A DNA stretch of 64,000 nucleotides from Paraglaciecola sp. T6c. GTDB lineage: Bacteria > Pseudomonadota > Gammaproteobacteria > Enterobacterales > Alteromonadaceae. The translations under genes were made by a program, and so were the position numbers. Location: positions 1,426,001-1,490,000 of the forward strand of contig NC_008228.1 in the NCBI RefSeq assembly GCF_000014225.1. Direction: 5' to 3'. Each line of letters opens with the position of its first letter. Position 1 is the first letter of the stretch. Shown here one piece after another: positions 13,491 to 36,094 of this stretch. The notes under the pieces were generated by a model. The model was not told where the DNA came from, did not search any database, and saw only the letters and a program-made list of their open reading frames with translations.

Positions 13491-15395
13491 TCATTGCGAT
13501 TTTGTCATTTCAGTCGATTGAATATAACGAAACCACCACATTTGAAACATCAACATGCTCCATAACACCGTGCTGTGATCGGCTTTTTCTGCTTGATGTT
13601 GCTGCCAAAGCTGCTTGACCACATTCATATCAAAATATTGTTGGATGCCCTGAGCTTTATTAAACAAGTAATCTTCGGTTAGTTCTTTAATTTCACATCG
13701 TAACCATGTCGCTAAGGGCACCGAGAAGCCCATTTTTTTGCGATATAAAATATCATCAGGCAAAACTGGTTTAAAGGCTTCTTTGAGGATGAATTTTTTC
13801 TCGCCGTCACGATATTTTAAATCCGATGGCAGGGTAGCAGAGAATTCAATGACGTCTTTATCTAGTAGGGGCGCACGCACTTCTAAGGAGTGCGCCATAC
13901 TCATACGATCGACTTTTACTAAAATGCCGCCGGGCAAGTAGGTCTTCATGTCGGTATACAAAATCTTCGACAAGTGGTCTTTCCCATCGGCCTTGTGGTA
14001 GTTTTCGAGTGTTACTTCACTTGGATGGTAAGCGCCTAACTTAGCCTTGGTATCTGATGAGGCTAAACGTTCCCAAAGGCGATCATCTATCATCGAGTTA
14101 GTCACATAAAACCCCATGGCGGGGTCTAAACTCAAACTTGTTAACAGAGATTTAGCCTTTCTAAATAGTGGATGCTCACTTTTAGCGAATACGTTGGCGA
14201 GTTTAGGGAATACCTTCTTGCGCAGCGCTTCGGGAAAGCGTTCACGTAGTTTGTTTTCCAGTGCATCTGTGGTGTATTTTTCATAGCCTGCAAATACTTC
14301 ATCGCCGCCATCACCGGCAATCGCTACCGTTACCTGAGAGCGTGCCAACTGAGAAACAAAATACGTTGGTACTAAAGATGGGTCGGCAAAAGGCTCGTCA
14401 AAATAACCGACTATCTCTTCTAAGTTGTCTTTTACATTTTGGTGAACGGTAAATTCGTGGTGCTCGGTTTTATATTGATCAGCGACAATTTGGGCAAATT
14501 CGGTTTCGTTAAAACGCTTTTCATCGAATCCTATTGAGCAGGTTTTGACTGGCTTATCGCTATTCAGCGCCATCATAGCGACCACACCACTGGAGTCTAT
14601 TCCACCACTCAAAAATGCGCCTAAGGGCACGTCACTGACCATACGAGAACAGGTTTTTTCTGTGGCTAAATCGTAAAGTGCTTTGGTCAGTTCGGTCTGA
14701 GATTGATTGCTGGTTTGCTTAAAGGAAACATCCCAGTATTGTTCTATCTGTATCCCATCTTGCGAGACCCACATAAAGTGTGCCGGAGGCAGTTTGTGAA
14801 TATCGGTGAAAATAGTTTTTGGGTCTGGTACATATTGATAAGCAAAGAAGTCATGTACTGCGTCTAGCCTGACCTCCCGCGACACATTGGGGAGTGTAAG
14901 TAATGCTTTAATTTCAGAGGCAAACGCAAACTGAGTGTCAGTTTTAAGGTAATAAAGGGGCTTTTTGCCTACGCGATCTCGAGCAATGAGTAAACGCTTG
15001 CTGGTAGTGTCCCAAAGGGCGAATGCGAACATGCCATTTAACATGCTAAGCATCTTTTCACCGTGCGCTGCATAGAGCGCAAGGATCACTTCTGTGTCCG
15101 TGTGGGTTTTAAATGGATAGCCTTCGCTGACAAGGTCATCACGAAGTGCCTGAAAGTTATATATCTCACCGTTAAAGGCAATGATGTATCTTTCGTCATG
15201 TGAGTACATAGGCTGTGTGCCGGCTTCTGACAAGTCGATAATGGCCAACCGACGATGGGCTAGACCTACGTATTCATCGATATATTCGCGACCAGCGTCT
15301 GGACCACGATGATAAATACTGTCACCCATTTTTTTAAGGGTTTGCTGGTTACCCATGTTCCCGCTAAATTGTGTAAACCCTGCAATACCACACAT
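13491..15395 (-). CDS. asparagine synthase-like amidotransferase (glutamine-hydrolysing), XrtA-associated type
   Basis: A 634-residue enzyme. I place the start at 15395 because the mature form must begin Met-Cys: MCGIAGFTQFSG gives the Ntn nucleophile Cys2, and a longer frame starting at 15503 would bury it. The class II glutaminase domain spans about 1-200 (HRGPDAG, AHRRLAIIDLS, FNGEIYNF, DTEVILALY). The synthetase domain follows with LSGGIDSSGVVAM (PPi loop SGGxDS), YFDEPFADPS and IAGDGGDEVFAGY. Exosortase-A loci usually carry such an amidotransferase, thought to amidate a sugar carboxylate or a related group. It acts in the cytoplasm. Confidence 0.88.
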   Translation of the reverse strand: MCGIAGFTQFSGNMGNQQTLKKMGDSIYHRGPDAGREYIDEYVGLAHRRLAIIDLSEAGTQPMYSHDERYIIAFNGEIYNFQALRDDLVSEGYPFKTHTDTEVILALYAAHGEKMLSMLNGMFAFALWDTTSKRLLIARDRVGKKPLYYLKTDTQFAFASEIKALLTLPNVSREVRLDAVHDFFAYQYVPDPKTIFTDIHKLPPAHFMWVSQDGIQIEQYWDVSFKQTSNQSQTELTKALYDLATEKTCSRMVSDVPLGAFLSGGIDSSGVVAMMALNSDKPVKTCSIGFDEKRFNETEFAQIVADQYKTEHHEFTVHQNVKDNLEEIVGYFDEPFADPSLVPTYFVSQLARSQVTVAIAGDGGDEVFAGYEKYTTDALENKLRERFPEALRKKVFPKLANVFAKSEHPLFRKAKSLLTSLSLDPAMGFYVTNSMIDDRLWERLASSDTKAKLGAYHPSEVTLENYHKADGKDHLSKILYTDMKTYLPGGILVKVDRMSMAHSLEVRAPLLDKDVIEFSATLPSDLKYRDGEKKFILKEAFKPVLPDDILYRKKMGFSVPLATWLRCEIKELTEDYLFNKAQGIQQYFDMNVVKQLWQQHQAEKADHSTVLWSMLMFQMWWFRYIQSTEMTKSQ

Positions 15396-15468
15396 AGATA
15401 TTTCGGCCCTGTAGTTGGTGTTCTTTATTGAACAAACCATTTGATGCATACCAAATGGCTGGTCATCT

Positions 15469-16536
15469 TTACAAACTGATATGTTTACGAATTTTAGGAC
15501 CAAGCGCGGTCGTTACATGCAAAGGCAATTTTGCCCAAACTTTCTCAATTACGGGTCTGATTTTACCCTGTGGTACGTTTTCACGTTCATCGTTATCCTG
15601 AGCGCTAAAATCTTGTTGAATTTGTGTTGTGGCATCATACCAATTCAGTAATTGGGGCGTGGCTCCCCACTGAGCTTTAAATCGATAAGTCCCCTCATTA
15701 AAAGTGGAGCGCCCAAAATCAAATGTTTGCATGTTATTGTCACACGCTTCTTTTAGTAAAGACCAATACAACAGCATGTTAGGAGCTAAACGATTGTACT
15801 CGGCGACTGTCGATGCCCATGGTATTGAAGTCACTCCCCCTGTAGACAGCGTTATCCCAGCACCAACGGGTACGTTTTCACTGTAAACGACGGATAATAT
15901 ACTGTTTTCTTTATAGTTTTCAATGATATGTTGAAACCATGCTTTGCTATGTACAGGGGAGCCCAATTTACGCATATTGATCGCGAATATGTGGTAAAAA
16001 TCGTCCAAGCCATTACCGTTTTTATGGATTTCATAGCGCAGGCCATTTTTTTCTGACTTTCGTATTTGGCTGCGTAGTTTTGATTTGAAGTTGCTCATTA
16101 ATTCTTCACTAGTGGCGGGCAACGACAAAAGCATGCGTACTTTTTGGCCTTCCATTTGTGACTCTGGTGGGGGTTCGTCTATGTAGTCTCTTAATTGAAA
16201 TGTTCGCCCAGTGACATTCAATAATTGCTGCTTCATGAATGCCATCAGTTTATCTGCAGTTGTGCTGTCATCAGCGAGCAAGAAACCCAAATCACAATAG
16301 GGCAGGGAGCAAAATGCAGGGCGCAACAAAGGTCGACGCATCAGGATACAAGGGAACACGCCAACAACGTCGTCGCCGCAAAGGGCAATGGCTGAGGTAT
16401 TTTCGTGTTGGTATGCCTGTTCTACACTTTCGACCCAACCATAATAGTGATATGGCGTTGCTCTAGGGTGGTTATTGATGTAAGCATTCCATATGGATTT
16501 GTCTGCTTGTGTGACTAAGCGTACTTGCACCGTCAT
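15469..16536 (-). CDS. FemAB-like (GNAT-fold) protein, XrtA/PEP-CTERM-associated
   Basis: A 355-residue protein. The N-terminal part (WNAYINNHPRATPYHYYGWVESVEQAYQHEN) and CILMRRPLLRPAFCSLPYCDLGFLLAD match the FemAB-related family found in exosortase loci. FKSKLRSQIRKSEKNGLRYEI (about 150-170) and FDFGRSTFNEGTYRFKAQWG (about 273-292) are the best-conserved segments of FemAB/BioF2-type acyltransferases. It probably transfers an aminoacyl or acyl group to the EPS precursor. The stop lies 73 bases before the amidotransferase start, and the start overlaps the deacetylase stop by four bases. Confidence 0.85.
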   Translation of the reverse strand: MTVQVRLVTQADKSIWNAYINNHPRATPYHYYGWVESVEQAYQHENTSAIALCGDDVVGVFPCILMRRPLLRPAFCSLPYCDLGFLLADDSTTADKLMAFMKQQLLNVTGRTFQLRDYIDEPPPESQMEGQKVRMLLSLPATSEELMSNFKSKLRSQIRKSEKNGLRYEIHKNGNGLDDFYHIFAINMRKLGSPVHSKAWFQHIIENYKENSILSVVYSENVPVGAGITLSTGGVTSIPWASTVAEYNRLAPNMLLYWSLLKEACDNNMQTFDFGRSTFNEGTYRFKAQWGATPQLLNWYDATTQIQQDFSAQDNDERENVPQGKIRPVIEKVWAKLPLHVTTALGPKIRKHISL

Positions 16537-23447: not shown

Positions 23448-26204
23448 TTAAATACTGGTGCTGAGGCGCGACAGTGTGTCTTTCTCAGTATCATTAGCAG
23501 GCTTAAATCGGTTGATAAGCCCTTTAGCTTTATCTTTACTGCCTGTAGCGATCAACAGCTCAATCAGATGGAGGGTAATTTCATTGTTTTTCGGTAATTC
23601 CGCATTTGCTTTTTTGATATAGGTTAGCGCGTCTGAAAATTGATTGTTTCTAAACAGTGCCCAACCCAAAGTATCCATAGCATAAGGGGAGTTTGGCTGT
23701 ATCTGAATAGCTTGTTGAGCTAGCTCGATAGCTAGAGGGATTTCCTCTTTTCTAATGGCAAGCGCTGAATAATTGTTTAATGTTACAAAGTCTTTAGGAT
23801 TCATATCCAGTAAGCCCTTATAATATATCTCCGCCGCGTCAAGAGCGCCGTTTCGAGTATAGTACTCAGCAATGTAATGGATGTTTTTATACTTAACTCG
23901 CCTTTTCGCCGTTTGCTGTACTAAATAATTTCCGCCAAGTTGAACCTTACCCACTTTCGCAAGGGCTTCCGCAAGAGGGATAGCCGTGTCCCATGATGGA
24001 TTTTCTGAATAGTAATGGCTGAGGAGCTCACTCGCTTTCTGATATTCTTTATTGTGAAGAGCAATTTCTCCATTAAATAGCTCAAACATAGGGGAACTGT
24101 GCCCTTCAGAATTCATCTTTTCGATTTTTTGTTTTGCTCTAGAGATTTCTCCCGCTCGAATAAGTGCTCGAATATTAAGTACTGTGAGGCGAGGATCATG
24201 CGGGATAGCAGTCTCAGCACGGCTAGCTAACTCTGCTGCTTCAACATGTAAACCATACTGATTAAGTAGGTTTATTTGCTTGTTCCAGCTAAGCGTATTT
24301 CTCGGGAAGATATTTACAAGCGTCTCAAAAGTTAATTTTGCGTTCCTAAAATCATCCATCTCTATATAAGTTTGACCTAATTCAGATAATACAAAGAAGT
24401 CTTTCTGATTTTTGATGTCTTTTAAGACCGTCAATGCTTTTTGATATTCACCTTGATAGTTAAAAATCGTTGCTAATCCCACTTTTAGCTCTAGAGGTTC
24501 TTCCTCAACATCAGTAGGTCTGTTATCCAATAAAGACTGAAGCAGCGTCTCGATAGACTTAAGGTCATCTTGCTGTATTGCTAGGTTAATAATGGTTAGG
24601 ACTAGCTGAAATTTACCCTCGGCATTATTAGACGACAGCAACAGCTTCTCAGCCAACGTTCGCGCTTCATCAAAACGCTTTTCGCGAGCATTCATCAACA
24701 TCAAGAAACGCATTGCTGGATAATTATCCGGCGCTAACTCAAGTACTTTTTGTAGAGTTGCTCTAGCCTCAACATTATTGTTTAACTGCTGCAGCAAGTA
24801 GGATTCAAGCACTAACCCATCTATTTGGTTTGTTTCTTGCCAGCGCTTGGCAATAGACAACGCTTGTTCTGAATCGTTCGCCTGCATATGGGCCTGAGCG
24901 AGCAAGCTCCATGCCTCGCTCAACGTAGCATCAATCGCAATTGCTGACTCTAGACTCTCTATGCCTGACTGATCCCCAGAAGATAGTTTTACCAATCCTT
25001 CTCGCAAGAGCGTTACCGCATTATTAGGATCGCCGTCTTTCGCTTGTTTGAACAAACTTTTAGATTCTTCGATGTCTCCTTCTCGGAATTTAATCATCGC
25101 AGCATTCTCAAGTAAGCTTGATTTCTGAATATCTTGGCCTGAGATACCTTCAAGCAGTTGAGCTAAATTATCAGTTTCACCTAATCTAATTTTAACATCA
25201 GCCAATAATCTATTGGCCATATGATCGCGAGGTATATTTCTAGAAGCTCTTGATAAATATTTGTAAGCACTTTCAGTTCGCTCAATTTTGTAAGCACTGA
25301 TACCAGCAAGGAGATTACTTTGCGTACTATTAATACCGTTTTGTATCGCAAACTCAGCTGCATCGAATGCTTCTTTATAATTATCTTCGCTAATGTAAAT
25401 TTGTGACATTAGTAAATTCGCATACGCGCTTCTGGCGTTTACCTTCAAAAGCCCATCGATAAGTACTCGAGCTTTCTCAAGTTTTTCAGCTTTTATCAAT
25501 ATTTCTGCCAATTGAAACTGAATAACATAGTATTCTGGAGATGAGTTAACGACTTTTTCTAAAGCACTGATAGCTGAATCGTAATCTTTTAATTGCGCCT
25601 TAATTAAACCTGTAACGATGAGTTTCTCAATTTTGTTCCGTTCTAAATCCACGAAGCTAGATAAATCGCTGTTAGCTTGCTCGTAGTTGCCTTGAGAGAA
25701 ATCAAAATAAACCTGCGCTAATGTTTTATCGTCACCGATTAATGTTGAAAAATCAGTATTAATAGCATCATTATCAGAGGTGTTTTTTAAGTTAGCTAAG
25801 AAAGTAAACAAAGAGATACTGCTAAGTACCTCAGTATCATTACTGGTAAAATCTTGTGTTAATCTTATGAGGCGGTCAAAGTCATTTTGATAATAAATGG
25901 CTTTGACTAGGGCTGGATAAACAGAATCTTTGGATTCGCCCAACTCTAAAGCTTTGCGTAGTTCTTTTTCTGATTCATCAAATAACCCCGCGACAAGGTA
26001 ATATTGGCCTAAGTTCGTGCGCGCGTCTTTATTTTTGGGCGCTAAAGCGATGGCATTTTTCAAATCAATGATAGCGGCTTGCGTGTCGTTTTTCTGATAT
26101 TGCTCTTTAGCGCTCGCGATGTATTCTTCTGCGGACTTGCTGTCGCAGCCTATCAGGGTAAGTGCTGAAACTACGACTAGAGATGATAAAATTTTGATGC
26201 GCAT
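23448..26204 (-). CDS. prsT: PEP-CTERM system TPR-repeat lipoprotein PrsT
   Basis: A 918-residue lipoprotein. The start is set at 26204 because a good ribosome site (GGAG) precedes it and the next residues form a lipoprotein signal: MRIKILSSLVVVSALTLIGC, with lipobox LIGC and Cys20. A longer frame from 26246 would put 14 hydrophilic residues before the signal. The rest is helical TPR repeats, for example AIIDLKNAIALAPKNKDARTN and AIELAQQAIQIQPNSPYA. The family marks exosortase-A EPS loci and is thought to act in the periplasm as a scaffold for polymer assembly or export. It is the first gene of the long minus-strand EPS run. Confidence 0.87.
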   Translation of the reverse strand: MRIKILSSLVVVSALTLIGCDSKSAEEYIASAKEQYQKNDTQAAIIDLKNAIALAPKNKDARTNLGQYYLVAGLFDESEKELRKALELGESKDSVYPALVKAIYYQNDFDRLIRLTQDFTSNDTEVLSSISLFTFLANLKNTSDNDAINTDFSTLIGDDKTLAQVYFDFSQGNYEQANSDLSSFVDLERNKIEKLIVTGLIKAQLKDYDSAISALEKVVNSSPEYYVIQFQLAEILIKAEKLEKARVLIDGLLKVNARSAYANLLMSQIYISEDNYKEAFDAAEFAIQNGINSTQSNLLAGISAYKIERTESAYKYLSRASRNIPRDHMANRLLADVKIRLGETDNLAQLLEGISGQDIQKSSLLENAAMIKFREGDIEESKSLFKQAKDGDPNNAVTLLREGLVKLSSGDQSGIESLESAIAIDATLSEAWSLLAQAHMQANDSEQALSIAKRWQETNQIDGLVLESYLLQQLNNNVEARATLQKVLELAPDNYPAMRFLMLMNAREKRFDEARTLAEKLLLSSNNAEGKFQLVLTIINLAIQQDDLKSIETLLQSLLDNRPTDVEEEPLELKVGLATIFNYQGEYQKALTVLKDIKNQKDFFVLSELGQTYIEMDDFRNAKLTFETLVNIFPRNTLSWNKQINLLNQYGLHVEAAELASRAETAIPHDPRLTVLNIRALIRAGEISRAKQKIEKMNSEGHSSPMFELFNGEIALHNKEYQKASELLSHYYSENPSWDTAIPLAEALAKVGKVQLGGNYLVQQTAKRRVKYKNIHYIAEYYTRNGALDAAEIYYKGLLDMNPKDFVTLNNYSALAIRKEEIPLAIELAQQAIQIQPNSPYAMDTLGWALFRNNQFSDALTYIKKANAELPKNNEITLHLIELLIATGSKDKAKGLINRFKPANDTEKDTLSRLSTSI

Positions 26205-26355
26205 ACTAACTCCATTAGTTAATTCTTCTTGCTGCTCTAGGTTCACTCACCGGCGAGGCAGTGGCACAGCGAAAGAGTATCACCACTGTATTGTATTATC
26301 ATATTAGGAACAATATGAGATGTTAAAACATAAACTAGCAAAATACTGGTGTTTG

Positions 26356-28210: not shown

Positions 28211-29047
28211 TTATTTTTTAAATCTTCTACCAAGACCAAGACCTAAAAGACCAAGACCTAAGAAAGCCAAGTTTGCAGGAGCTGGAACTTGTTTTAAACC
28301 AACAACAACGTTATCGAACTCTCCAGCGATACCAGAAGAAATTACTTTGAAGTTATCGAACGCTTCGGCATCCGAGAAGTCAATATTCACATAAGTGTTA
28401 GATGCAGGTGATGTTTGGTTACCAGGGCTACCGTTTAATTGTGCCAACAACTGTGGACCAGTGATTGATGCAACTAAAGTAGCGCCATCATAAAACTCAA
28501 AGCTGTTATAAGTATCTACTGAGCCCCAGTAGAAGCCCAAGTAGTTAATTTTTGAACCAGCAAGGCTAGCTTCAATACCACCAACGTTCGCTAAGAACGT
28601 TGTATAATTAATATCTACCGAGCTATCTGATCCAATATTTTCTGGTGTGGTGTATGCGTAACAAGTGTTGTCACCAGCTGGCGCTGCTGCTACGTTAGGT
28701 ACTGAATTATTACGAACATTCAATACACCAGCACCGCTTGGAGTTACTGCTAACGGCGAGTTGATTTGACAACCATCAGATGCGCCAGCAACATTATAAC
28801 TTGTGTCACCACCAGCACCAACCGGGAAAACAGTTGCACTATCGAAGGTTTCAACGAAATATCCGTTTGAAACAGTCGCTGCAGTAATTTGGTTGCTAGC
28901 ATCTATACGAGAGCTTGTTTGACCTGAGCCGTCAGTCGCTGTCTGGCCACCGAAACTGATAGTCGCAGCGCTTGCTTGACTTGCTGCACCAAACGCTAAA
29001 AGAGCGGCTAGTGTTACTAATTTTGTTTTCTTAACTAAGTTTGACAT
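28211..29047 (-). CDS. PEP-CTERM sorting-domain protein (exosortase substrate)
   Basis: A 278-residue secreted protein. It has a Sec signal (KKTKLVTLAALLAFGAASQASA, cleavage about after residue 28). A Ser/Thr/Asn/Gly-rich beta-type body follows, with two possible disulfide Cys pairs. The C-terminal sorting signal VPAPANLAFLGLGLLGLGLG (254-273) plus RRFKK forms the tripartite motif-helix-basic tail. The motif is PAP instead of PEP, a variant found in some Alteromonadales. Exosortase A would cut near this motif and transfer the protein to the outer surface or EPS matrix. It has its own sigma-54 promoter and a strong terminator. Confidence 0.9.
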   Translation of the reverse strand: MSNLVKKTKLVTLAALLAFGAASQASAATISFGGQTATDGSGQTSSRIDASNQITAATVSNGYFVETFDSATVFPVGAGGDTSYNVAGASDGCQINSPLAVTPSGAGVLNVRNNSVPNVAAAPAGDNTCYAYTTPENIGSDSSVDINYTTFLANVGGIEASLAGSKINYLGFYWGSVDTYNSFEFYDGATLVASITGPQLLAQLNGSPGNQTSPASNTYVNIDFSDAEAFDNFKVISSGIAGEFDNVVVGLKQVPAPANLAFLGLGLLGLGLGRRFKK

Positions 29048-29102
29048 GTGATATTCCTTTTAGACCAAAAGATGAGACCAAAGATACTGCTGTAGAAGGT
29101 AA

Positions 29103-29118
29103 AGCAGTACTTATGCCA
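29103..29118 (-). promoter_or_regulatory. sigma-54 (-24/-12) promoter of the PEP-CTERM gene
   Basis: On the minus strand the sequence is TGGCATAAGTACTGCT. It has GG and GC dinucleotides exactly 12 bases apart, as required for RpoN, and agrees with TGGCAC-N5-TTGCA at the important positions except for T at C6 and C at T12. Transcription would start near 29092, about 45 bases before the ATG. PEP-CTERM genes are known to be controlled by PrsK/PrsR and RpoN in floc-forming bacteria, which fits. Confidence 0.72.
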
Positions 29119-29253
29119 AGTTTGAAATATTCTTTATTTTCAGATGGTTAGGTTTTTTCCATTTTTTGTATGCGAGGAGATGTAAAATTTACTGACAAAA
29201 TAAAGTGCGGTTGTCGGTGAGTGGCGAAGGTATCAAACACATCTCGTTGTTCA

Positions 29254-29270
29254 TGCCTAATTTATAGGCA
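29254..29270. promoter_or_regulatory. inverted repeat, possible activator site upstream of the sigma-54 promoter
   Basis: TGCCTA-ATTTA-TAGGCA, perfect six-base arms with a five-base centre. It is about 140 bases upstream of the -24/-12 element, a usual distance for an enhancer-binding protein. No identical copy is seen upstream of the second sigma-54 promoter, so the role is a guess. Confidence 0.35.
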
Positions 29271-29423
29271 AAGTATTATCGTTGTAACGGGAAATTTAGT
29301 TTCCACCTCAATAGAGACAGAAGGATAGATAAAACACTTGTTATAAATAGATTGGGTTAATTGAACCGTGTAAAATTTTTTGACATCGAATAGGGCCCAG
29401 CCGGCAAGCCCAAGTTTTGAGCT

Positions 29424-30233
29424 TCAGTTGAATTGTGAATTAACTTTCTTTTCGATATTCTTCAGCATGCGCTTAAAGCCAGGTGTTAGGCCGCTCATTA
29501 ATAGGTGACGGCTGATATAGTATGGGGCTCTCTTCCCGTGATATTCTACAACGGGGCCAACTTGTTGAAAGGGGATGCCCACAAAGCGTAAGCTGCGCGC
29601 CAGTCTTGGCTCCATCATCACAAAACAATGTTTAATATCGTGTTTACGCGAGGTAGACGCGGCGCACAAATATAGCCCCACCGCAATAAAGGGGAAACAG
29701 CGTAGCTCGCGCTCAGAGTAAATATGCTCATTGATAGCACCTGTGGCTGAACCCTTAAATTTATCCGTGGCACGCTTTCGAAACTGAGCGGGGACTGCCA
29801 ATCGAGATATTTCACATATTTCACTTCGTGGAAAATCACTTGGATGTACTGCGTCATCAGCAATCGAACTAATACAGTATTTCTCTATTGGTAGGAGTTG
29901 CTCTTCACTCATAGAGCGCACGATGCGAACCGTACCGGCATATTCACCAGTAGGGAGGTGCTTAATTAAACAATGGGTAGAGTGACTATCAAATTGATCT
30001 GTTTCCATCTTGTCTGAACGTTCATCTTCAAACTTTAATTCTTCGCAATAGACTTTGTGCCTAATTTTATAAGATTCATTACGAAGATCGTCTGACAGGG
30101 CAACAACAGGGCTGAGGTATTCCGCGAAATGTCTAGAGATCTGATTAGCCTTCTGGCTTACCACCAAATTCATTACTTTTTTTACCACTGGCCCAATAAT
30201 AGGGAGATCAGCGTACTTTCGAAGTTGTTTCAT
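29424..30233 (-). CDS. PEP-CTERM/exosortase-associated N-acyltransferase (autoinducer-synthase-like fold)
   Basis: A 269-residue soluble protein. The segment SYKIRHKVYCEELKFEDER (about 54-72) followed by ETDQFDSHSTHCLI (77-90), YAGTVRIV (98-105) and ICEISRLAVPAQFRKR matches the exosortase-associated acyltransferase family. That family is related in fold to LuxI-type and N-acyl amino acid synthases. The expected activity is transfer of an acyl group from acyl-ACP or acyl-CoA to an amine; the acceptor is unknown. It lies 31 bases downstream of the patatin gene and probably shares its mRNA. Confidence 0.82.
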   Translation of the reverse strand: MKQLRKYADLPIIGPVVKKVMNLVVSQKANQISRHFAEYLSPVVALSDDLRNESYKIRHKVYCEELKFEDERSDKMETDQFDSHSTHCLIKHLPTGEYAGTVRIVRSMSEEQLLPIEKYCISSIADDAVHPSDFPRSEICEISRLAVPAQFRKRATDKFKGSATGAINEHIYSERELRCFPFIAVGLYLCAASTSRKHDIKHCFVMMEPRLARSLRFVGIPFQQVGPVVEYHGKRAPYYISRHLLMSGLTPGFKRMLKNIEKKVNSQFN

Positions 30234-30264
30234 AGATTCATTTCTTTAAAACGGTAGTCCACAT

Positions 30265-31104
30265 CTAGTTCCTTAGTTGTGTATCGGTATAAATCTGCAT
30301 TCGTTTAGGCACAAATTCAAATGCGGTGTTATAACCAATATTGTACAACTCCTCTTTTTGTATCGCTGTAATATTAAAATCGACGGGAGATAATTTACCC
30401 GTATTGATGATTATAGTATTACGCCAGTACTCTGCATGTACATACTCTCGCGACATTGCCGTCATGAAGGTCCTAATCAGCATCATCACATATTGCCGTA
30501 ATGGCAGCCAACTTTTTTTAAAGTTCGGATCTGTCACATGCTCGCTTTTTAATTTAAAACACATAACTGGTGAGCCATCACCTGCCCAATCTTGATACAA
30601 CGCATCTTCTGATAAAATAGCACCGTCTACAAGAACATGCTGTTTATAGGCTTGAAAGCTGAAAAAAAGTGGGATGGACATTGAAAAGCGCACCGCCTTC
30701 GATATCTTCAAATCGGGACTCGTTTTACGGCTAAATACCACCGGGCCTCCGCCGTTAACATCGGTCGCTAAAATGTGTAAGTCTTTATCTATGTCTGAGA
30801 ACGTTAGACCTTTAAGGTGTTTGTCCATCCACGCCTCAAATTGGTCCCCCGAACTTAAACCGCCTTGGCGTAATAATCTGAGTAATGAAAAGCCTTTGAA
30901 CTTTTTGAAGTCAGTTGTCATGGCTAAGTGTTTTATATCTGCTAAGGGCACACCACAGCAATAAAGAGCTGCTACGATGGAGCCGCCAGAAACCCCCACC
31001 ATGTGTTGAAACTGAATATCGAGCTTCTGTAAAGCATCGAACACGCCAATATGCACTGTTAAGCGGGTTCCGCCCCCCGAAAAAATCGGCACTATTGATT
31101 TCAT
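30265..31104 (-). CDS. patatin-like phospholipase
   Basis: A 279-residue hydrolase. The oxyanion loop is SGGGTR (9-14), the nucleophile elbow is GVSGG (37-41, Ser39), and the catalytic Asp lies in VDGAIL (Asp160, DGA motif). There is no signal peptide, so it acts in the cytoplasm or at the inner face of the membrane. It would release fatty acid from a lipid. Together with the adjacent acyltransferase it could form a lipid-remodelling pair. The neighbouring YdcF gene ends 91 bases upstream. Confidence 0.85.
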   Translation of the reverse strand: MKSIVPIFSGGGTRLTVHIGVFDALQKLDIQFQHMVGVSGGSIVAALYCCGVPLADIKHLAMTTDFKKFKGFSLLRLLRQGGLSSGDQFEAWMDKHLKGLTFSDIDKDLHILATDVNGGGPVVFSRKTSPDLKISKAVRFSMSIPLFFSFQAYKQHVLVDGAILSEDALYQDWAGDGSPVMCFKLKSEHVTDPNFKKSWLPLRQYVMMLIRTFMTAMSREYVHAEYWRNTIIINTGKLSPVDFNITAIQKEELYNIGYNTAFEFVPKRMQIYTDTQLRN

Positions 31105-31195
31105 GTTTAGTTCCTTGCTTATCCTTCGCCGGACCTATTAAGGCCTACAATCTGACTGGTGATTTATAGCGTCAATGCATTGTTTACTAGTTTTA

Positions 31196-31951
31196 TCACT
31201 TAATGTAGCGCTGGTATATTAGACCTAAGTACTCGTGAATTGCTCGCTCGCTGCGATAAAGACTATACGCGTTGGGCAAGCCTATGGTGAATGAAACGTG
31301 TTTCCGACTGAGGTGCTCTACAGGTATCGGTAATACTGAGAGTCCGTGTAGTCTGAAATATTCCACTGCGCGAGGCAGGTGACTCGCCGAGCTTACTAAT
31401 GCCATATGTTTGTTTTGCAAATATGGCGCCAATGCTTCTACTTCTGATTCTGTGTCATGCCCCATAGGAAAGGTATGAATGTCCTTTGGATTTACGCCTA
31501 AAGTGACCAAAAAGTCCTTGTTATATTGGGCTTGAGATTTTAAGTCCGTCTCATTTAGGATCCCAGCGGCTAAGTATATTGGCAGAGGTTTTTCGTTGTA
31601 CATTAACGCAGCGTGTAAATTGCGCTGCATCGTGCACTGGGGCCATTTACTCACAAAAGGTAAGCCGTCATCATCGAAATGATTGCAGGCTAACACTACG
31701 ATACCATCCGTCAGTTGCCATTCATTTGAAGAGAGTTTGATGGTCGGATATTGGTCTTCCAATGGCTTAATTAATAGAACACTGGGATAAACAAGACTAC
31801 AAAAAAGTACCCATAAGATTGGGACGCATGACGCCCATTGGTAAATACGCCGACCTTGAAGTGGCAGGCGAGATAAGAGCTGCAAGATAGCAAACAACAA
31901 AAGCCCATGAACTAACGGCGAGCTTAAACTGTTTGCTAATGACTGCAGCAT
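31196..31951 (-). CDS. YdcF/ElyC family (DUF218) membrane protein
   Basis: A 251-residue protein. Two hydrophobic segments (about 10-28 and 38-58) anchor it, and the remainder is the DUF218 domain: LTDGIVVLACNHFDD, LPIYLAAGILNETDLKSQAQYNKDFLVTLGVNPKDIH, DTESEVEALAPYL and MALVSSASHLPRAVEYFRLHGL. E. coli relatives (ElyC, SanA) affect envelope or lipid-carrier handling. It is the first gene of a set with the patatin and acyltransferase genes. Confidence 0.83.
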   Translation of the reverse strand: MLQSLANSLSSPLVHGLLLFAILQLLSRLPLQGRRIYQWASCVPILWVLFCSLVYPSVLLIKPLEDQYPTIKLSSNEWQLTDGIVVLACNHFDDDGLPFVSKWPQCTMQRNLHAALMYNEKPLPIYLAAGILNETDLKSQAQYNKDFLVTLGVNPKDIHTFPMGHDTESEVEALAPYLQNKHMALVSSASHLPRAVEYFRLHGLSVLPIPVEHLSRKHVSFTIGLPNAYSLYRSERAIHEYLGLIYQRYIK

Positions 31952-31983
31952 TTACATCACCTTATATCTTGTAGAAGCTTTTA

Positions 31984-32004
31984 TACCAATCCACAAAATT
32001 GGTA
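31984..32004. repeat. ATTGGTA inverted repeat, probable extragenic repeat element
   Basis: TACCAAT-CCACAAA-ATTGGTA with perfect seven-base arms. Elements built on ATACCAAT/ATTGGTAT are common between genes in Alteromonadales and Shewanella. This one sits exactly at the 3' side of the epimerase relic, which may mark a deletion or insertion scar. Confidence 0.5.
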
Positions 32005-32024
32005 ATCCCTTATTTAATTGGGTT

Positions 32025-32195
32025 TTAGGCTTGTTTGCTTAGTGTGCCTTCCAAGGCTGTAATAAAATCAAGTAGATTGACAGGAATTTGTGCGCCAATA
32101 TTGTCGATACCCACGACCTCGTCACCGCGTGATAACAACACCTGACAAACATGAAAACCGATGAATCCGGCAGCCCCTGTGACTAATACTTTCAT
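32025..32195 (-). pseudogene. relic of UDP-glucuronate 4-epimerase-type NAD-dependent epimerase (large internal deletion)
   Basis: A 56-codon open frame. Residues 1-33 ([20 protein letters not shown], then [10 protein letters not shown]) are the exact N-terminus of an NAD-dependent sugar epimerase with its GxxGxxG motif. From about residue 36 the sequence jumps to [20 protein letters not shown], which matches the region some 230-250 residues later (consensus SPVxLLxFIxALExALGKxA of UDP-glucuronate epimerases), and then stops. So roughly 600-700 bases are missing in frame and the C-terminus is lost. It cannot be a working enzyme. It suggests that the locus once made its own UDP-galacturonate. 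Confidence 0.82.
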
Positions 32196-32306
32196 TTCAT
32201 TAATCCTAATATTTTGTGTATAACCCTAAGATATTAATCACGTTACGCTATTGTTGTGACAAAGTTTCTGTTCACACTAGCCCTACGAAATAGTAAGTAG
32301 CTTATT

Positions 32307-33089
32307 ATGATAACGAAAAATTATATTTATAAAATCATTTGTGTGGTTTTTTCTTTGGTGTTTTTAACGACGTCAGTCAGCGCCTCGCAAAAAACAAACG
32401 TGGTTAAAAAAGTTAAACCCTCTGTGGTAGGGGTAGGATTGTATGATGCAATGTCTGCTGTTTCGCATCAGCTGCGGGGAAGTGGCTTTGTATTTGGTGA
32501 TGGAACGCTCATTGCGACTAACTTCCACGTTGTATCAGAACCGCTTGATCCACAGATTGTCCAATATCATATTGTTTTTTCGGGGACGGGGCGACAACCT
32601 AAAATCCATAAAGCTGAAATTATCGCTAAGGACCCGGTGCACGATTTAGCAATACTGAAAATTCGTGACACACTGCCAGCTTTGCAGCTTGGCCCAGATG
32701 AGTATGTTGATGATGGTCAAGACATACTAATGACAGGATTCCCGATTGGGTCAATATTAGGATTATACCCGGCAACCCATAAAGGAATGATTGCAGCACT
32801 CACCCCAGACGTGATCCCAAGTGCCAATGCGCGTAACTTAACCATGAAAATGCGCAATCGTTTAGAGAGTCCATTCATGATCTATCAACTGGATATGACT
32901 GCCTACCCTGGCAATAGTGGTAGCGCCATTTATGATGCCGAGACAGGCCGTGTGGTGGGGATAATTAACAAGGTATTTATTAAAGAAACCAAAGAAGCGG
33001 TTTTAGAAAAACCGAGCGGCATTAGCTATGCAATTCCTGTTAAATATTTAAGATTATTAAGCAAAAAGAAAGGGATTGCGGTAAACTGA
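32307..33089 (+). CDS. secreted trypsin-like (DegP-type S1C) serine protease
   Basis: A 260-residue protein with a Sec signal (ICVVFSLVFLTTSVSAS, cleavage near 26). The catalytic triad is visible: His74 in TNFHVV, Asp113 in DPVHDLAIL and Ser204 in YPGNSGSAI. No PDZ domain follows, so it is shorter than DegP. It is likely to be periplasmic. It lies next to the HPr-rel-A operon and PEP-CTERM genes and could process or quality-control their exported products, but this is inference. It ends 143 bases before the Tat protein gene. Confidence 0.83.
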   Translation: MITKNYIYKIICVVFSLVFLTTSVSASQKTNVVKKVKPSVVGVGLYDAMSAVSHQLRGSGFVFGDGTLIATNFHVVSEPLDPQIVQYHIVFSGTGRQPKIHKAEIIAKDPVHDLAILKIRDTLPALQLGPDEYVDDGQDILMTGFPIGSILGLYPATHKGMIAALTPDVIPSANARNLTMKMRNRLESPFMIYQLDMTAYPGNSGSAIYDAETGRVVGIINKVFIKETKEAVLEKPSGISYAIPVKYLRLLSKKKGIAVN

Positions 33090-33175
33090 ATAATAGTTGA
33101 TCGAATTGTGTCACGAAACTTTACAGTTTTTGATTTTAAGTTAAATATATCCAGTAAGATCAGTTGGTTGGGATT

Positions 33176-33191
33176 TGGCTTAAATTTTGCT
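33176..33191 (+). promoter_or_regulatory. sigma-54 (-24/-12) promoter of the HPr-rel-A operon
   Basis: TGGCTTAAATTTTGCT: TGGC at -24, TTGCT at -12, GG and GC 12 bases apart. The match is better than that of the PEP-CTERM promoter at 29103-29118. Transcription would start near 33202, about 30 bases before the ATG at 33233. It also overlaps a longer possible start at 33164, which makes 33233 the better start. Confidence 0.75.
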
Positions 33192-33232
33192 TTATCTGCC
33201 TGATATGCGTTACTAATGGAGTATTAAGAACA

Positions 33233-33775
33233 ATGAATGTCGTCGACAAAAAATCTGAGAATAGCCAAGGCGCTGTTTCTAACCGACGTAAGTTTCTGTT
33301 AAAAGGATCTGCGGCTGCACTCATAGTGAGCCTTCCATCGAAAGCAACGTGGGCTACAACGGCGAATGGTTGTACAGTATCGGGGAATTTGTCAGGAAAC
33401 TTATCACAAGCATGCTCCACCACAACGATTGCTGGAGTATCCCCTGCTACTTGGTTAAAAGATGCTAATAATGACCAAAATTTAAAAGACTCGCTTAAAG
33501 CGGTCAAATGGGACACTGTTTTCAGTATCTCTACTACGGGTACATATACAAAGGGCGGTGGTGGAGTTGTGAGTCGTCCACATTTGTATCGTGTTTTATG
33601 GCAAGGTTCTGACATCGACAAAAGTTTAGTCGCTGGATACTTGAATGCTTATTATGGAAATTATCCATTGTCGTCGGAAGTGACCCCTGAGATGTATGCT
33701 TCAATGCTTGAGGAAGAAGCGATGAATGACCAGGGTGCGCTTATGGATGCATTGAGTCAAACTTATACGCGATAA
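33233..33775 (+). CDS. small Tat-exported protein of unknown function, first gene of the HPr-rel-A operon
   Basis: A 180-residue protein. It has a twin-arginine signal SNRRKFLLKG (17-26) followed by a hydrophobic stretch and ATWA, cleavage near residue 41. The mature part has two Cys (47 and 61), a Ser/Thr/Gly-rich start, a GGGG turn at about 108-111, RPHLYRVLWQGSDIDKSLVAGYLNAYYG, and an acidic end. I recognise no enzyme domain. The start is fixed by the sigma-54 element and by GGAG 11 bases upstream of the ATG. It is immediately followed (TAATTG) by the PqqD-like gene. It may be the substrate or an exported partner of the kinase system. Confidence 0.75.
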   Translation: MNVVDKKSENSQGAVSNRRKFLLKGSAAALIVSLPSKATWATTANGCTVSGNLSGNLSQACSTTTIAGVSPATWLKDANNDQNLKDSLKAVKWDTVFSISTTGTYTKGGGGVVSRPHLYRVLWQGSDIDKSLVAGYLNAYYGNYPLSSEVTPEMYASMLEEEAMNDQGALMDALSQTYTR

Positions 33776-34060
33776 TTGAACCTGTTGCAGCTAAGTTTGT
33801 ACCAAGTAAACCCAAATATATTGATTTATAACGCCAGCGATTCGTCTGGCGTTTTTGTGTTTGTACCTATCACGGGTAATTCTCTGAGATTGAGTGGCCA
33901 ATTTCAGGCTTTTTTTACTCAGTATCATTTTGGTGTTCCCTTCAATGAAGAGCAAATGTTCGCTCTATTTCCCGATTCTTCGTTGATTGATATTCAACAA
34001 TCAATCAGGCACCTCGAATCCCAGTGCGTCATTCAGAAGGTTGAATCCGTTGAGACTTAA
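33776..34060 (+). CDS. PqqD-like protein of the HPr-rel-A system
   Basis: A 94-residue protein starting with TTG directly after the stop of the previous gene. The beta-rich N-terminal half (IYNASDSSGVFVFVPITGNSLRLSG) followed by helices (FNEEQMFALFP, IQQSIRHLESQCVIQKVE) has the winged-helix layout of PqqD-type peptide chaperones. Sequence likeness is weak; the call depends on its place just before the HprK-related kinase. Such proteins bind a leader peptide and present it to a modifying enzyme. Later TTG codons (33785, 33797) are possible starts. Confidence 0.6.
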   Translation: MNLLQLSLYQVNPNILIYNASDSSGVFVFVPITGNSLRLSGQFQAFFTQYHFGVPFNEEQMFALFPDSSLIDIQQSIRHLESQCVIQKVESVET

Positions 34061-34961
34061 GGATATTTCAGAAAATGAAGCCGCCGCGAGATTGATAAAG
34101 GGGGAAATCAATATCGATTTGGGCGTGGCAGCCTTCGGTGTTCAATCTTCATTGCCCGATGTGCAGCGCGTGTTTTATCAGCTATATGGTGACTATGAGT
34201 TACTTGATGACGTATCTCCTGCGGATTTTCGGGTTGCCGTGCAATCACCTAAATCCTTGAGGCGGTGGTATAAGCCGCAAATTCACTTTCTACTTGATGA
34301 GTTTGTGCCGTTTTTACCCTTGCCACGCTCGCAAGCGTATCCAGTGTTAGAGTGGGGTATGAACTGGTGTATGGCGTCTCATATGCACAGATATTTATTA
34401 CTCCACGGTGCAGTGCTTGAAAAAGACGGCAAAGCGATAATTTTTCCGGCTCCTCCGGGCTCAGGTAAGAGCACGTTAACAGCTTACTTGGCCCATACCG
34501 GGTGGCGTTTACTCTCAGACGAAATGACGGTTATTAATTTAGAAACAGGCCTAGTTCACCCCTTTGTTCGTCCAATTTGTGTAAAGAATAACTCAATAGA
34601 TTTGGTGAGATCTTGGTTCCCAGAGGTGACTATTTCAAATATTGCCAGAGATACCAATAAAGGTGATGTGGCTCATGTTAAACCCCCTATTGCAAGTATT
34701 GATAAAATCAAGCAAACAGCTCCGGTGATGGCTGTCGTACTACCCAAATACACATCTGATGTCACGTTAGATATCTACAGCTTAACCAAAGCTGACGCGT
34801 TTCAAGCGTTAACGGATAACGCGTTTAATGATTCAATATTAGGTGCTGATGGTTTTCTCGCACTGCAAAAGTTAGTTGAAAGTACGGACGCAGTGGAAAT
34901 TCATTATAACGATTTAGCCGAAGTCTCAGCATTTCTGGACGAGGGACAGTTTGCACCGTGA
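34050..34961 (+). CDS. HprK-related kinase A (HPr-rel-A system)
   Basis: A 303-residue protein. I choose the TTG at 34050 because AGAAGG lies at good spacing and the protein then begins MRLKDISENEAA like other family members; a frame from 33987 would overlap the PqqD-like gene by 74 bases. The kinase core has HGAVLEKDGKA (119-129), Walker A PAPPGSGKSTL (133-143) and LLSDEMTVI (154-162). It lacks the HPr-binding N-terminal domain of true HprK. It probably phosphorylates a Ser or a small molecule. It overlaps both neighbours (11 bases and GTGA), so the three are tightly coupled. Confidence 0.83.
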   Translation: MRLKDISENEAAARLIKGEINIDLGVAAFGVQSSLPDVQRVFYQLYGDYELLDDVSPADFRVAVQSPKSLRRWYKPQIHFLLDEFVPFLPLPRSQAYPVLEWGMNWCMASHMHRYLLLHGAVLEKDGKAIIFPAPPGSGKSTLTAYLAHTGWRLLSDEMTVINLETGLVHPFVRPICVKNNSIDLVRSWFPEVTISNIARDTNKGDVAHVKPPIASIDKIKQTAPVMAVVLPKYTSDVTLDIYSLTKADAFQALTDNAFNDSILGADGFLALQKLVESTDAVEIHYNDLAEVSAFLDEGQFAP

Positions 34962-36094
34962 ATGCTATATCCAAGTATACTGACCATTTAGTCACACTGC
35001 TATCAGGTAACGTGCCAAAGGCAATCACACACACGGAGTGGGAGTTTCTTATACGGATCGCTCGTGAAGCATCTGTCTTACCAAGAGTTGCTTATGCGCT
35101 TGATAGTGTCATCGAATTGGTTCCTGAGTACGCGCAGACACACCTTATCTCCGCTAAATATCATGCAAAATTACTCGCTCAGCAAGTGAAATTTGAGGCC
35201 AGCGAATTCAAGCGAATTTTACCTGTTGAGCTGCAAACTGAGCTTATTTATTTAAAAGGGGCGGCCTACACATTATCAGGATGTAGTGCAGGTAGAGGGC
35301 GTGTTTTTTCTGATATTGATATGTTGGTATCAAAAGCTAATTTGCGTGAAGTCGAAGCACGTTTAAGCGTATATGCGTGGTTTACTCAGCCAACAGATGA
35401 CTATGATGACATGTATTATCGTCAGTGGGCCCATGAAATTCCGCCTTTGAAGCATTCAGGGCGAGGCACAATATTAGATGTGCACCATAATTTAGTGCCG
35501 CTTATCAGTGGTAAAGCCCCAGATATAAATGATTTTACCGCTGGTGCTCGCACCTTATCTTGTGGCGCGCGCGTCTTATCGCCAGGCGCAATGATATTGC
35601 ACAGCGCTGTGCATTTGTTTTATCAAGAAGAATACCATCATGGCTTTCGCGACTTGTCAGATTTGCACTTGCTGTTTAGCGAGTTTGGAACTGAGCAAGC
35701 ATTTTGGGATGAACTATTTATTCTGGCGCAAAAAACGGGGTTTGGTTTAGAGCTCGCCCTCGCATTACGTTATGTAAATACGCTGTTCGATACCGATATT
35801 CCACAAGCTGAATTGCATAAAAGCCAGCTTTGGCTACCACCTAAAATTACGCTAAAGATATTCGATTGGATGTACTGCAGAGTACTGCAGCCACATCATA
35901 GATTATGTAATGTGAGAGGGTTGGGCTTGGCCAACACGATGGCGTTGCTGAGAGGGCATTGGATAAAAATGCCAGTGCATATTTTGCTGATGCATACGGC
36001 TGCCAAAGGTTACAGAAATATTTTGAAGTGGGTGGCTGGTAAAGGAGTGAATAAGCCAGGTAGCGCGAAGAACAACACGCCACCAGGCATTTAA
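34958..36094 (+). CDS. nucleotidyltransferase family protein (NTP_transf_5-like) of the HPr-rel-A operon
   Basis: A 378-residue soluble protein starting with GTG that overlaps the kinase stop (GTGA). The nucleotidyltransferase core is YLKGAAYTLSGC (98-109) and GRVFSDIDMLV (114-124), with the DxD metal-binding Asp residues. LDVHHNLVPLIS and MILHSAVHLFYQEEYHHGFRDLSDLHLL follow, giving conserved His residues. It would attach a nucleotide to a protein, peptide or sugar. It ends only 21 bases before the convergent malate synthase gene, with no terminator in between. Confidence 0.8.
   Translation: MNAISKYTDHLVTLLSGNVPKAITHTEWEFLIRIAREASVLPRVAYALDSVIELVPEYAQTHLISAKYHAKLLAQQVKFEASEFKRILPVELQTELIYLKGAAYTLSGCSAGRGRVFSDIDMLVSKANLREVEARLSVYAWFTQPTDDYDDMYYRQWAHEIPPLKHSGRGTILDVHHNLVPLISGKAPDINDFTAGARTLSCGARVLSPGAMILHSAVHLFYQEEYHHGFRDLSDLHLLFSEFGTEQAFWDELFILAQKTGFGLELALALRYVNTLFDTDIPQAELHKSQLWLPPKITLKIFDWMYCRVLQPHHRLCNVRGLGLANTMALLRGHWIKMPVHILLMHTAAKGYRNILKWVAGKGVNKPGSAKNNTPPGI

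Follow-up and report, generated by a model that had tools for sequence, protein, structure and literature searches.

The HPr-rel-A operon of Paraglaciecola sp. T6c

We analysed a 64,000-nucleotide (nt) stretch of DNA from Paraglaciecola sp. T6c (positions 1426001-1490000 of its one-contig 5.19-Mb genome, NC_008228.1; hereafter the window), in which four coupled genes at 33233-36094 form an HPr-rel-A operon. They encode a protein with a twin-arginine translocation (Tat) signal, a PqqD-like protein, an HprK-related kinase and a nucleotidyltransferase-fold protein (Table 1). The open reading frames (ORFs) and all three junctions are those claimed by a first-pass annotation: a TAATTG junction links the Tat gene with the PqqD-like ORF, the kinase ORF overlaps the PqqD-like ORF by 11 bases (an alternative TTG upstream in the kinase frame, at 33987, is also open) and a GTGA overlap joins the kinase ORF to the nucleotidyltransferase ORF. 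Its family calls for both enzymes are likewise borne out. The kinase is a clear member of TIGR04352 (332.6 bits, cut-off 200; E 0.044 against TIGR00679), and the nucleotidyltransferase belongs to PF14907 (118.2 bits, gathering cut-off 31.2). Neither the Tat protein nor the PqqD-like protein reaches the cut-off of a curated family in NCBIfam or Pfam. The label 'PqqD-like', for which no model in these collections matches at E ≤ 1, is based on position, profile comparison and predicted fold, and the Tat signal was called from the RRKFL motif and a following hydrophobic stretch instead of by a trained Tat predictor.

Table 1 Features of the operon and its surroundings, in window positions
Feature	Position	Strand	Basis or remark
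Tat-signal protein gene, candidate substrate	33233..33775	+	ATG..TAA, 180 aa
PqqD-like protein gene, predicted RRE fold	33776..34060	+	TTG..TAA, 94 aa
HprK-related kinase A (TIGR04352) gene	34050..34961	+	TTG..TGA, 303 aa
NTP_transf_5 nucleotidyltransferase-fold protein (PF14907) gene	34958..36094	+	378 aa
Twin arginine R18-R19 (RRKFL)	33284..33289	+	alignment
SGNLS motif	33380..33394	+	candidate modification sites Ser50 (33380-33382) and Ser54 (33392-33394)
PEP-CTERM-type activator box TGTCACGAAACTTTACA	33109..33125	+	pattern match; 17 nt, TTTACA end
Sigma-54-type promoter element TTGGCTTAAATTTTGCT	33175..33191	+	49 nt after box, 41 nt before Tat ATG
HtrA/Trypsin_2-like serine protease gene	32307..33089	+	family scans; possible fifth operon member in the class
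PEP-CTERM-type surface protein gene	28211..29047	-	composite promoter; tail VPAPA not VPEPA, below curated PEP-CTERM cut-offs
Composite activator box and sigma-54 site of gene 28211-29047	29103..29197	-	pattern match
PEP-CTERM/exosortase system-associated acyltransferase	29424..30233	-	TIGR03694, 257 bits, cut-off 112
XrtA/PEP-CTERM-type amidotransferase, lasso-cyclase homologue	13491..15503	-	closest TIGR03108, 710 bits, under cut-off 817
FemAB-like XrtA-cluster protein	15469..16536	-	TIGR03019, 245 bits, under cut-off 260
PrsT TPR protein of PEP-CTERM system	23448..26246	-	TIGR02917, 447 bits, cut-off 312

Conservation of the Tat gene beside the kinase

Of 22 genomes of the genus, 20 have a kinase match (18 over cut-off), as do 41 of 394 genomes of an order sample (33 over cut-off) and 199 of 398 genomes of a phylum sample (61 over cut-off). 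Wide regions were taken from over-cut-off hits, covering 18 of 18 genus genomes (window included), 32 of 34 order-sample hits (without G057 and G077) and, for the phylum sample outside the order, 30 of 53 genomes. Of the 80 regions retrieved, 78 hold a kinase locus and two, stubs of 1 kb, were left unused; addition of L033, L034, L037 and the window gave 82 loci, and removal of L033 and L034 (on contigs shared with L098 and L045) and of L109 (kinase at a contig edge, below cut-off) left 79.

The gene order recurs across the examined loci, that is, beyond chance, and a nucleotidyltransferase of the same type is present in 78 of the 82. In 74 of 79 loci, a Tat-type gene occupies the slot upstream of the small ORF and the kinase. 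A motif rule, which matches 32 of 769 flanking ORFs, recognised 65 of these genes, and a profile alone picked up the other 9 (rule and profile together gave 75, of which L171 was spurious on inspection). The first-pass annotation had named absence of the Tat gene from this position in related genomes as what would speak against it; the gene is conserved there. A profile search of the window genome returned no second homologue of the Tat protein. Two HPr-rel-A systems of opposite orientation adjoin at locus L093 (10042-11660; G405 C78), and each has a Tat protein of its own. In L036 and L097, from a metagenome-assembled genome of Paraglaciecola arctica, stops near the signal region break the Tat frame and the kinase frame is open; L097 was kept among the 74 and excluded from promoter and motif counts.

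The slot is filled by three sets of Tat proteins, between whose mature parts homology is undetectable (hhalign probabilities 0.1-0.6). The window locus belongs to the first (53 loci; hereafter the class). A second, Magnetococcales-type set has named database homologues from Magnetococcales or Magnetococcus, one also labelled Nitrospirae, and comprises 16 loci in our own grouping (L143, L146-L157, L160-L162). The third, family f63, carries a C-terminal C-[FY]-A-S-L-Q in seven of its nine examined loci, the other two being without a recognised Tat gene.

Conserved serines in the Tat proteins

In a hand-picked alignment of 24 Tat proteins, R18, R19, S50, G51, S54, F97 and N138 are invariant; the twin arginine is thus kept throughout, and Tat export itself is predicted. 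Across a wider set of 52 mature parts of the class, Ser fills the S54 column in 49, the highest figure for any column, and the S50 column in 41. The motif SGxxS follows the signal in 39 of 53 class Tat proteins, compared with 5.5 in shuffles, and a C-x-x-S micro-motif shared between the sets, at most suggestive, occurs in 34 of 53 versus 12.5. These counts, the homology comparison of the three sets and the 34-protein count below depend on a simple rule for where the mature part begins, which mis-cut some proteins. A subgroup (L107:8140-8862, L108:6050-6727 and L140:8190-8957) has an SGLSGGSRS-type sequence in place of SGNLSGN. In the second set, all 22 aligned proteins carry C-W-x-S-F near the C-terminus, and C-[WFY]-x-S lies among the last 35 residues of all 34 proteins scanned for it. 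These conserved serines probably mark modification sites, within SGxxS in the class and within C-W-x-S-[FL] at the C-terminus of the Magnetococcales-type set. AlphaFold2 assigns nearly all of residues 1-62 of the window Tat protein low confidence and predicts them to be disordered, with helices in the remainder (mean predicted local distance difference test, pLDDT, 67.7); a fold search with this model gave no credible match (best E 0.76).

A predicted recognition element and two conserved enzymes

The PqqD-like protein is predicted with good confidence (pLDDT 88) to adopt, as a beta sheet followed by three helices, the fold of the recognition elements of ribosomally synthesized and post-translationally modified peptides (RREs). 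The best neighbours of the model in the PDB are TbiB1 and TigE, followed by other RREs and PqqD. The window protein does not match TIGR04353 at E ≤ 1, a model matched at E ≤ 0.01 by 31 of the 67 PqqD-slot proteins that remained after 8 spurious-looking ORFs among 75 had been removed before family scans. A conserved RRE fold encoded between the Tat protein and the kinase leads one to expect a ribosomal substrate.

In the nucleotidyltransferase, D119 and D121 of a D-x-D motif are each kept in 78 of 80 sequences and D174 in 79 of 80; from the fold family, we take all three to be metal ligands. Thirteen kinase residues (H140, G158, G160, K161, T163, D178, E179, K200, N201, T223, K225, G226 and N281, numbered in a 324-codon frame) are invariant in 83 sequences, among which two contigs are counted twice. 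A PDB search with the single kinase sequence returned nothing useful, and a 24-sequence profile matched HPr kinases (E 0.002) on a level with PEP carboxykinase (E 0.0018). Passages of PMC9266682 report a His-Lys-Asp-Asp motif for lasso-peptide kinases, which H140/K161/D178/E179 resemble, with Glu replacing the last Asp; the positions may be equivalent. By these residues, both enzymes look active.

A PEP-CTERM-type promoter precedes the Tat gene

Haft and co-workers describe, in the relevant passages of PMC1569441, a promoter arrangement that precedes 99 of 167 proteobacterial PEP-CTERM genes: a 17-nt motif with TTTACA at its end is followed, after a spacer of 32-92 nt, by a sigma-54 element, and PrsR is proposed to be the activator. 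The window Tat gene carries this arrangement, and its dependence on PrsR and sigma-54 is predicted; the genome encodes one PrsR over cut-off (701 bits). Our own pattern finds two exact composite promoters in the whole window, one before the Tat gene and one before the PEP-CTERM-type gene at 28211-29047. With up to one mismatch in the box it precedes 41 of 54 class Tat genes (53 loci), compared with 13 of 460 flanking genes (Fisher 1e-37), and in its exact form 32 of 54 compared with 8 of 460. By eye, 10 of the 13 promoter-bearing flanking genes encode PEP- or PAP-CTERM-like tails. The scan took in two of the seven f63 Tat genes, five lying outside it.

Association with exosortase and exopolysaccharide genes

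The operon belongs with PEP-CTERM/exosortase systems, with which it has both a promoter type and genomes in common. Exosortase (TIGR02602) is present in 33 of 33 over-cut-off kinase genomes of the order sample versus 48 of 361 others (Fisher 4e-26), and kinase and exosortase lie within 60 kb of each other in 17 of the 33. In the phylum sample it is present in 30 of 61 kinase genomes versus 37 of 337 others (7e-11). The XrtA-type glycosyltransferase TIGR03087 is over cut-off in 29 of the 31 kinase genomes of this sample that lack an over-cut-off exosortase (not in G447 and G544), at most 5 kb from the kinase in 16 of the 29, versus none of 49 other phylum-sample genomes; the 49 were taken in handle order from those over neither the kinase nor the exosortase cut-off and are unmatched for lineage, and the counts are not independent events because several genomes share families.

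In the window, an exopolysaccharide cluster with XrtA/PEP-CTERM-type members spans about 10-26 kb, and the exosortase of the genome lies beyond the window, 45 kb from the kinase. The neighbours scanned around the operon (28211-36094) include a PEP-CTERM protein, an acyltransferase, a patatin, a DUF218 protein and an HtrA-like protease. The amidotransferase of the cluster scores 325 bits against NF033535, a lasso cyclase model with a cut-off of 525.

Among the 16 second-set loci, three of which (L150, L151 and L161) come from genomes with an exosortase, a relative of this TIGR03108-type amidotransferase follows the nucleotidyltransferase gene in 12 and overlaps the end of that ORF in 11 of the 12 when first start codons are used. 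The upstream gene encodes a glycosyltransferase in all six second-set loci in which it was scanned. Downstream of the kinase, L151 (5289-7004), L155 (7806-9593) and L157 (7873-9651) carry a TPR-sulfotransferase (Sulfotransfer_3) gene.

Relatives of the Trypsin_2 protease occur in 30 of 53 class loci (31 of 82 with one duplicate). In 21 loci the protease gene shares the strand of the Tat ORF and stops 74-193 bases short of the first start of that ORF, and in 4 it lies further upstream; in L037, L140, L144, L145 and L158 it is downstream of the nucleotidyltransferase, on the opposite strand in three. Its position shifts while the linkage stays, which suggests a functional tie with HPr-rel-A, and the protease may trim the exported Tat protein. 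The promoter link, the exopolysaccharide clusters and this protease extend the first-pass annotation, which had none of them.

Comparison with known systems

The first-pass annotation called the system undescribed, which was too strong: NCBIfam names an HPr-rel-A system (TIGR04352, TIGR04353), and a close mechanistic relative, the linear polyphosphorylated peptides (LPPs) of Bacillota, was published in 2026 (PMC13381572). According to the passages of that paper on the lppA-K-B-S-D-N clusters, LppK polyphosphorylates Ser3 of the core peptide, its operon includes an RRE and a nucleoside triphosphate (NTP) transferase, and the clusters lie frequently within capsular polysaccharide loci. The window operon likewise combines a discrete RRE, an HprK-like kinase and an NTP transferase in one cluster. 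It differs, as far as those passages describe LPPs, in having as its presumed precursor a Tat-signal protein of 180 aa for which a helical domain is predicted, in the PEP-CTERM-type promoter of the Tat gene and in that [YW]xxP is not enriched. Neither an LPP-type SpI-like leader peptidase nor an MsbA-like exporter is encoded among the neighbours in the scanned range. The main text of PMC13381572 does not contain the terms Tat, twin-arginine, Pseudomonadota, Proteobacteria or Gram-negative.

Lasso peptides of the paeninodin/pseudomycoidin type, as presented in passages of PMC9266682, have an HprK-like kinase acting on a conserved C-terminal Ser and an RRE (B1); in pseudomycoidin, PsmN, annotated as a nucleotidyltransferase, is responsible, directly or via a host enzyme, for a hexose on the phosphoserine. 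A further likeness is the lasso-cyclase homologue (TIGR03108 type) after the nucleotidyltransferase gene in the 12 second-set loci, a family whose homology to lasso cyclases is evident in the NCBIfam models but which NCBIfam labels XrtA/PEP-CTERM system amidotransferase. No lasso B2 leader protease, cyclase C or short precursor was found in the operon or its scanned neighbours, the TIGR03108-type homologue in the polysaccharide cluster being the only related gene. Membership of the LPP or lasso families was rejected, as peptidase and exporter were not found in the scanned range and the YxxP motif is not enriched.

Although the window kinase is a clear HPr-rel-A member, the NCBIfam entry lines consulted give neither a substrate nor a link to Tat, sigma-54 or exosortase, and the window PqqD-slot protein is unmatched. 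The PEP-CTERM/EpsH regulon, as set out in PMC1569441, has the 17-nt TTTACA box, a spacer within 32-92 nt, the sigma-54 element and PrsR in common with this genome, but the protein regulated here has a Tat signal and no PEP-CTERM tail. Literature searches for HPr-rel-A, TIGR04352, TIGR04353, 'HprK-related kinase' and PqqD_rel_X found no paper, subscription titles being largely outside their coverage, and among the matches listed for PEP-CTERM or exosortase joined with Tat, HPr, PqqD, kinase or PrsR no paper deals with the operon. Floc formation needs PEP-CTERM and exopolysaccharide genes according to PMC9850573, in whose passages on the subject the HPr-rel-A operon is not mentioned.

Discussion

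On balance, we consider it probable that HPr-rel-A modifies a protein under the guidance of an RRE and works together with the PEP-CTERM/exosortase-type exopolysaccharide system. The computed results comprise conserved gene order, the predicted RRE fold, catalytic residues, conserved serines, promoter type and co-occurrence. The PqqD-like RRE would bind the Tat preprotein in the cytoplasm, and the HprK-like kinase would phosphorylate a conserved serine. The likeliest site in the window protein is Ser54, or else Ser50, both in the predicted disordered arm behind the signal peptide. The NTP_transf_5 enzyme would then add a nucleotidyl or glycosyl group, probably onto the phosphoserine. After exit of the folded protein via Tat, signal peptidase would free an N-terminus carrying the modified arm, which the HtrA-like protease may trim, and the product would join the exopolysaccharide matrix. 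The first-pass annotation had offered the Tat protein as substrate or partner; RRE fold, catalytic residues and near-invariant serines fit the role of substrate, and its interpretation is supported in part. By analogy, the best reading is a pathway that resembles the LPPs but acts on a Tat-exported protein, with predicted chemistry.

Several observations weigh against this pathway. Five of the 79 loci have no recognised Tat gene (L152, with just 1364 bases upstream of the kinase, L153, L160, L163 and L171; one of the five is close to where its contig begins), and stops interrupt the Tat frame of L097. SGxxS is absent from the scanned stretch in 14 of 53 class Tat proteins, and [YW]xxP, the RRE-binding motif of LPP and lasso precursors, is found in 21 of 53 whole Tat preproteins versus 23.5 in shuffles. 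The composite promoter precedes none of the 15 Tat genes tested outside the class, and 31 of the 61 phylum-sample kinase genomes have no exosortase over cut-off; co-inheritance could explain part of the co-occurrence, because the genomes are not independent. In the LPP system, deletion of the NTP transferase LppN was without effect in a heterologous host, according to the passages on it in PMC13381572. Modification of the Tat protein, the serine concerned, the second group and the final location are steps that we infer.

The nearness of the operon to exopolysaccharide clusters, the glycosyltransferase upstream of the scanned second-set loci and the activated sugar that NTP_transf_5 could make would also suit a system in which the two enzymes have a sugar or lipid intermediate of the exopolysaccharide as their substrate and the Tat protein is a separate exported factor for the same polymer. 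We hold this to be unlikely: a conserved protein of RRE fold, encoded between Tat protein and kinase, is what one would expect with a ribosomal substrate, and the near-invariant serines stand within otherwise variable Tat proteins. Rather improbable, too, is another protein as substrate, for example the PEP-CTERM proteins, with the Tat protein as a co-factor or co-exported chaperone. Such a role would agree with the promoter type common to Tat and PEP-CTERM genes and with the co-occurrence with exosortase, but in nearly all loci the run starts with the Tat gene, next to which lies the RRE gene, and the Tat gene is kept where no exosortase exceeds the cut-off, for example in the genomes of L143, L147, L148 and L149. 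Regulatory signalling of the HprK type, with phosphorylation of an HPr-like carrier, is very improbable in view of the partners of the kinase, an RRE fold, a nucleotidyltransferase and a Tat protein; what recalls it are the weak profile match to HPr kinase structures (E 0.002) and the TIGR00679 value (E 0.044). It was rejected, as no HPr-like gene lies at the conserved positions (HPr genes elsewhere in the genome were not searched).

Within the RRE-guided modification pathway, the Tat protein might serve as protein anchor or primer of the PEP-CTERM/exosortase-type exopolysaccharide, its serine being phosphorylated and then given a nucleotidyl or glycosyl group while still in the cytoplasm, and in the second set the neighbouring TIGR03108-type amidotransferase might add an amide link. 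We put this forward as a speculation that is unlikely to hold. If it were true, matrix polysaccharide would, after Tat export, be joined to a ribosomal protein via a phosphodiester- or phospho-glycosyl-serine.

The analysis gives a definite setting to a gene system that had a name but no explanation: the promoter type and the genomes that it has in common with the machinery of the sticky extracellular matrix indicate where the job of the operon should be sought. RRE-guided kinase chemistry, known for peptides in the cited passages, is apparently applied here to a Tat-exported protein. If the proposed pathway is correct, Ser54 would be the candidate residue, HPr-rel-A would be a Gram-negative counterpart of the LPPs, whose role is likewise unexplained, and PEP-CTERM/exosortase biofilm and floc biology would gain a second protein component together with a second export route.

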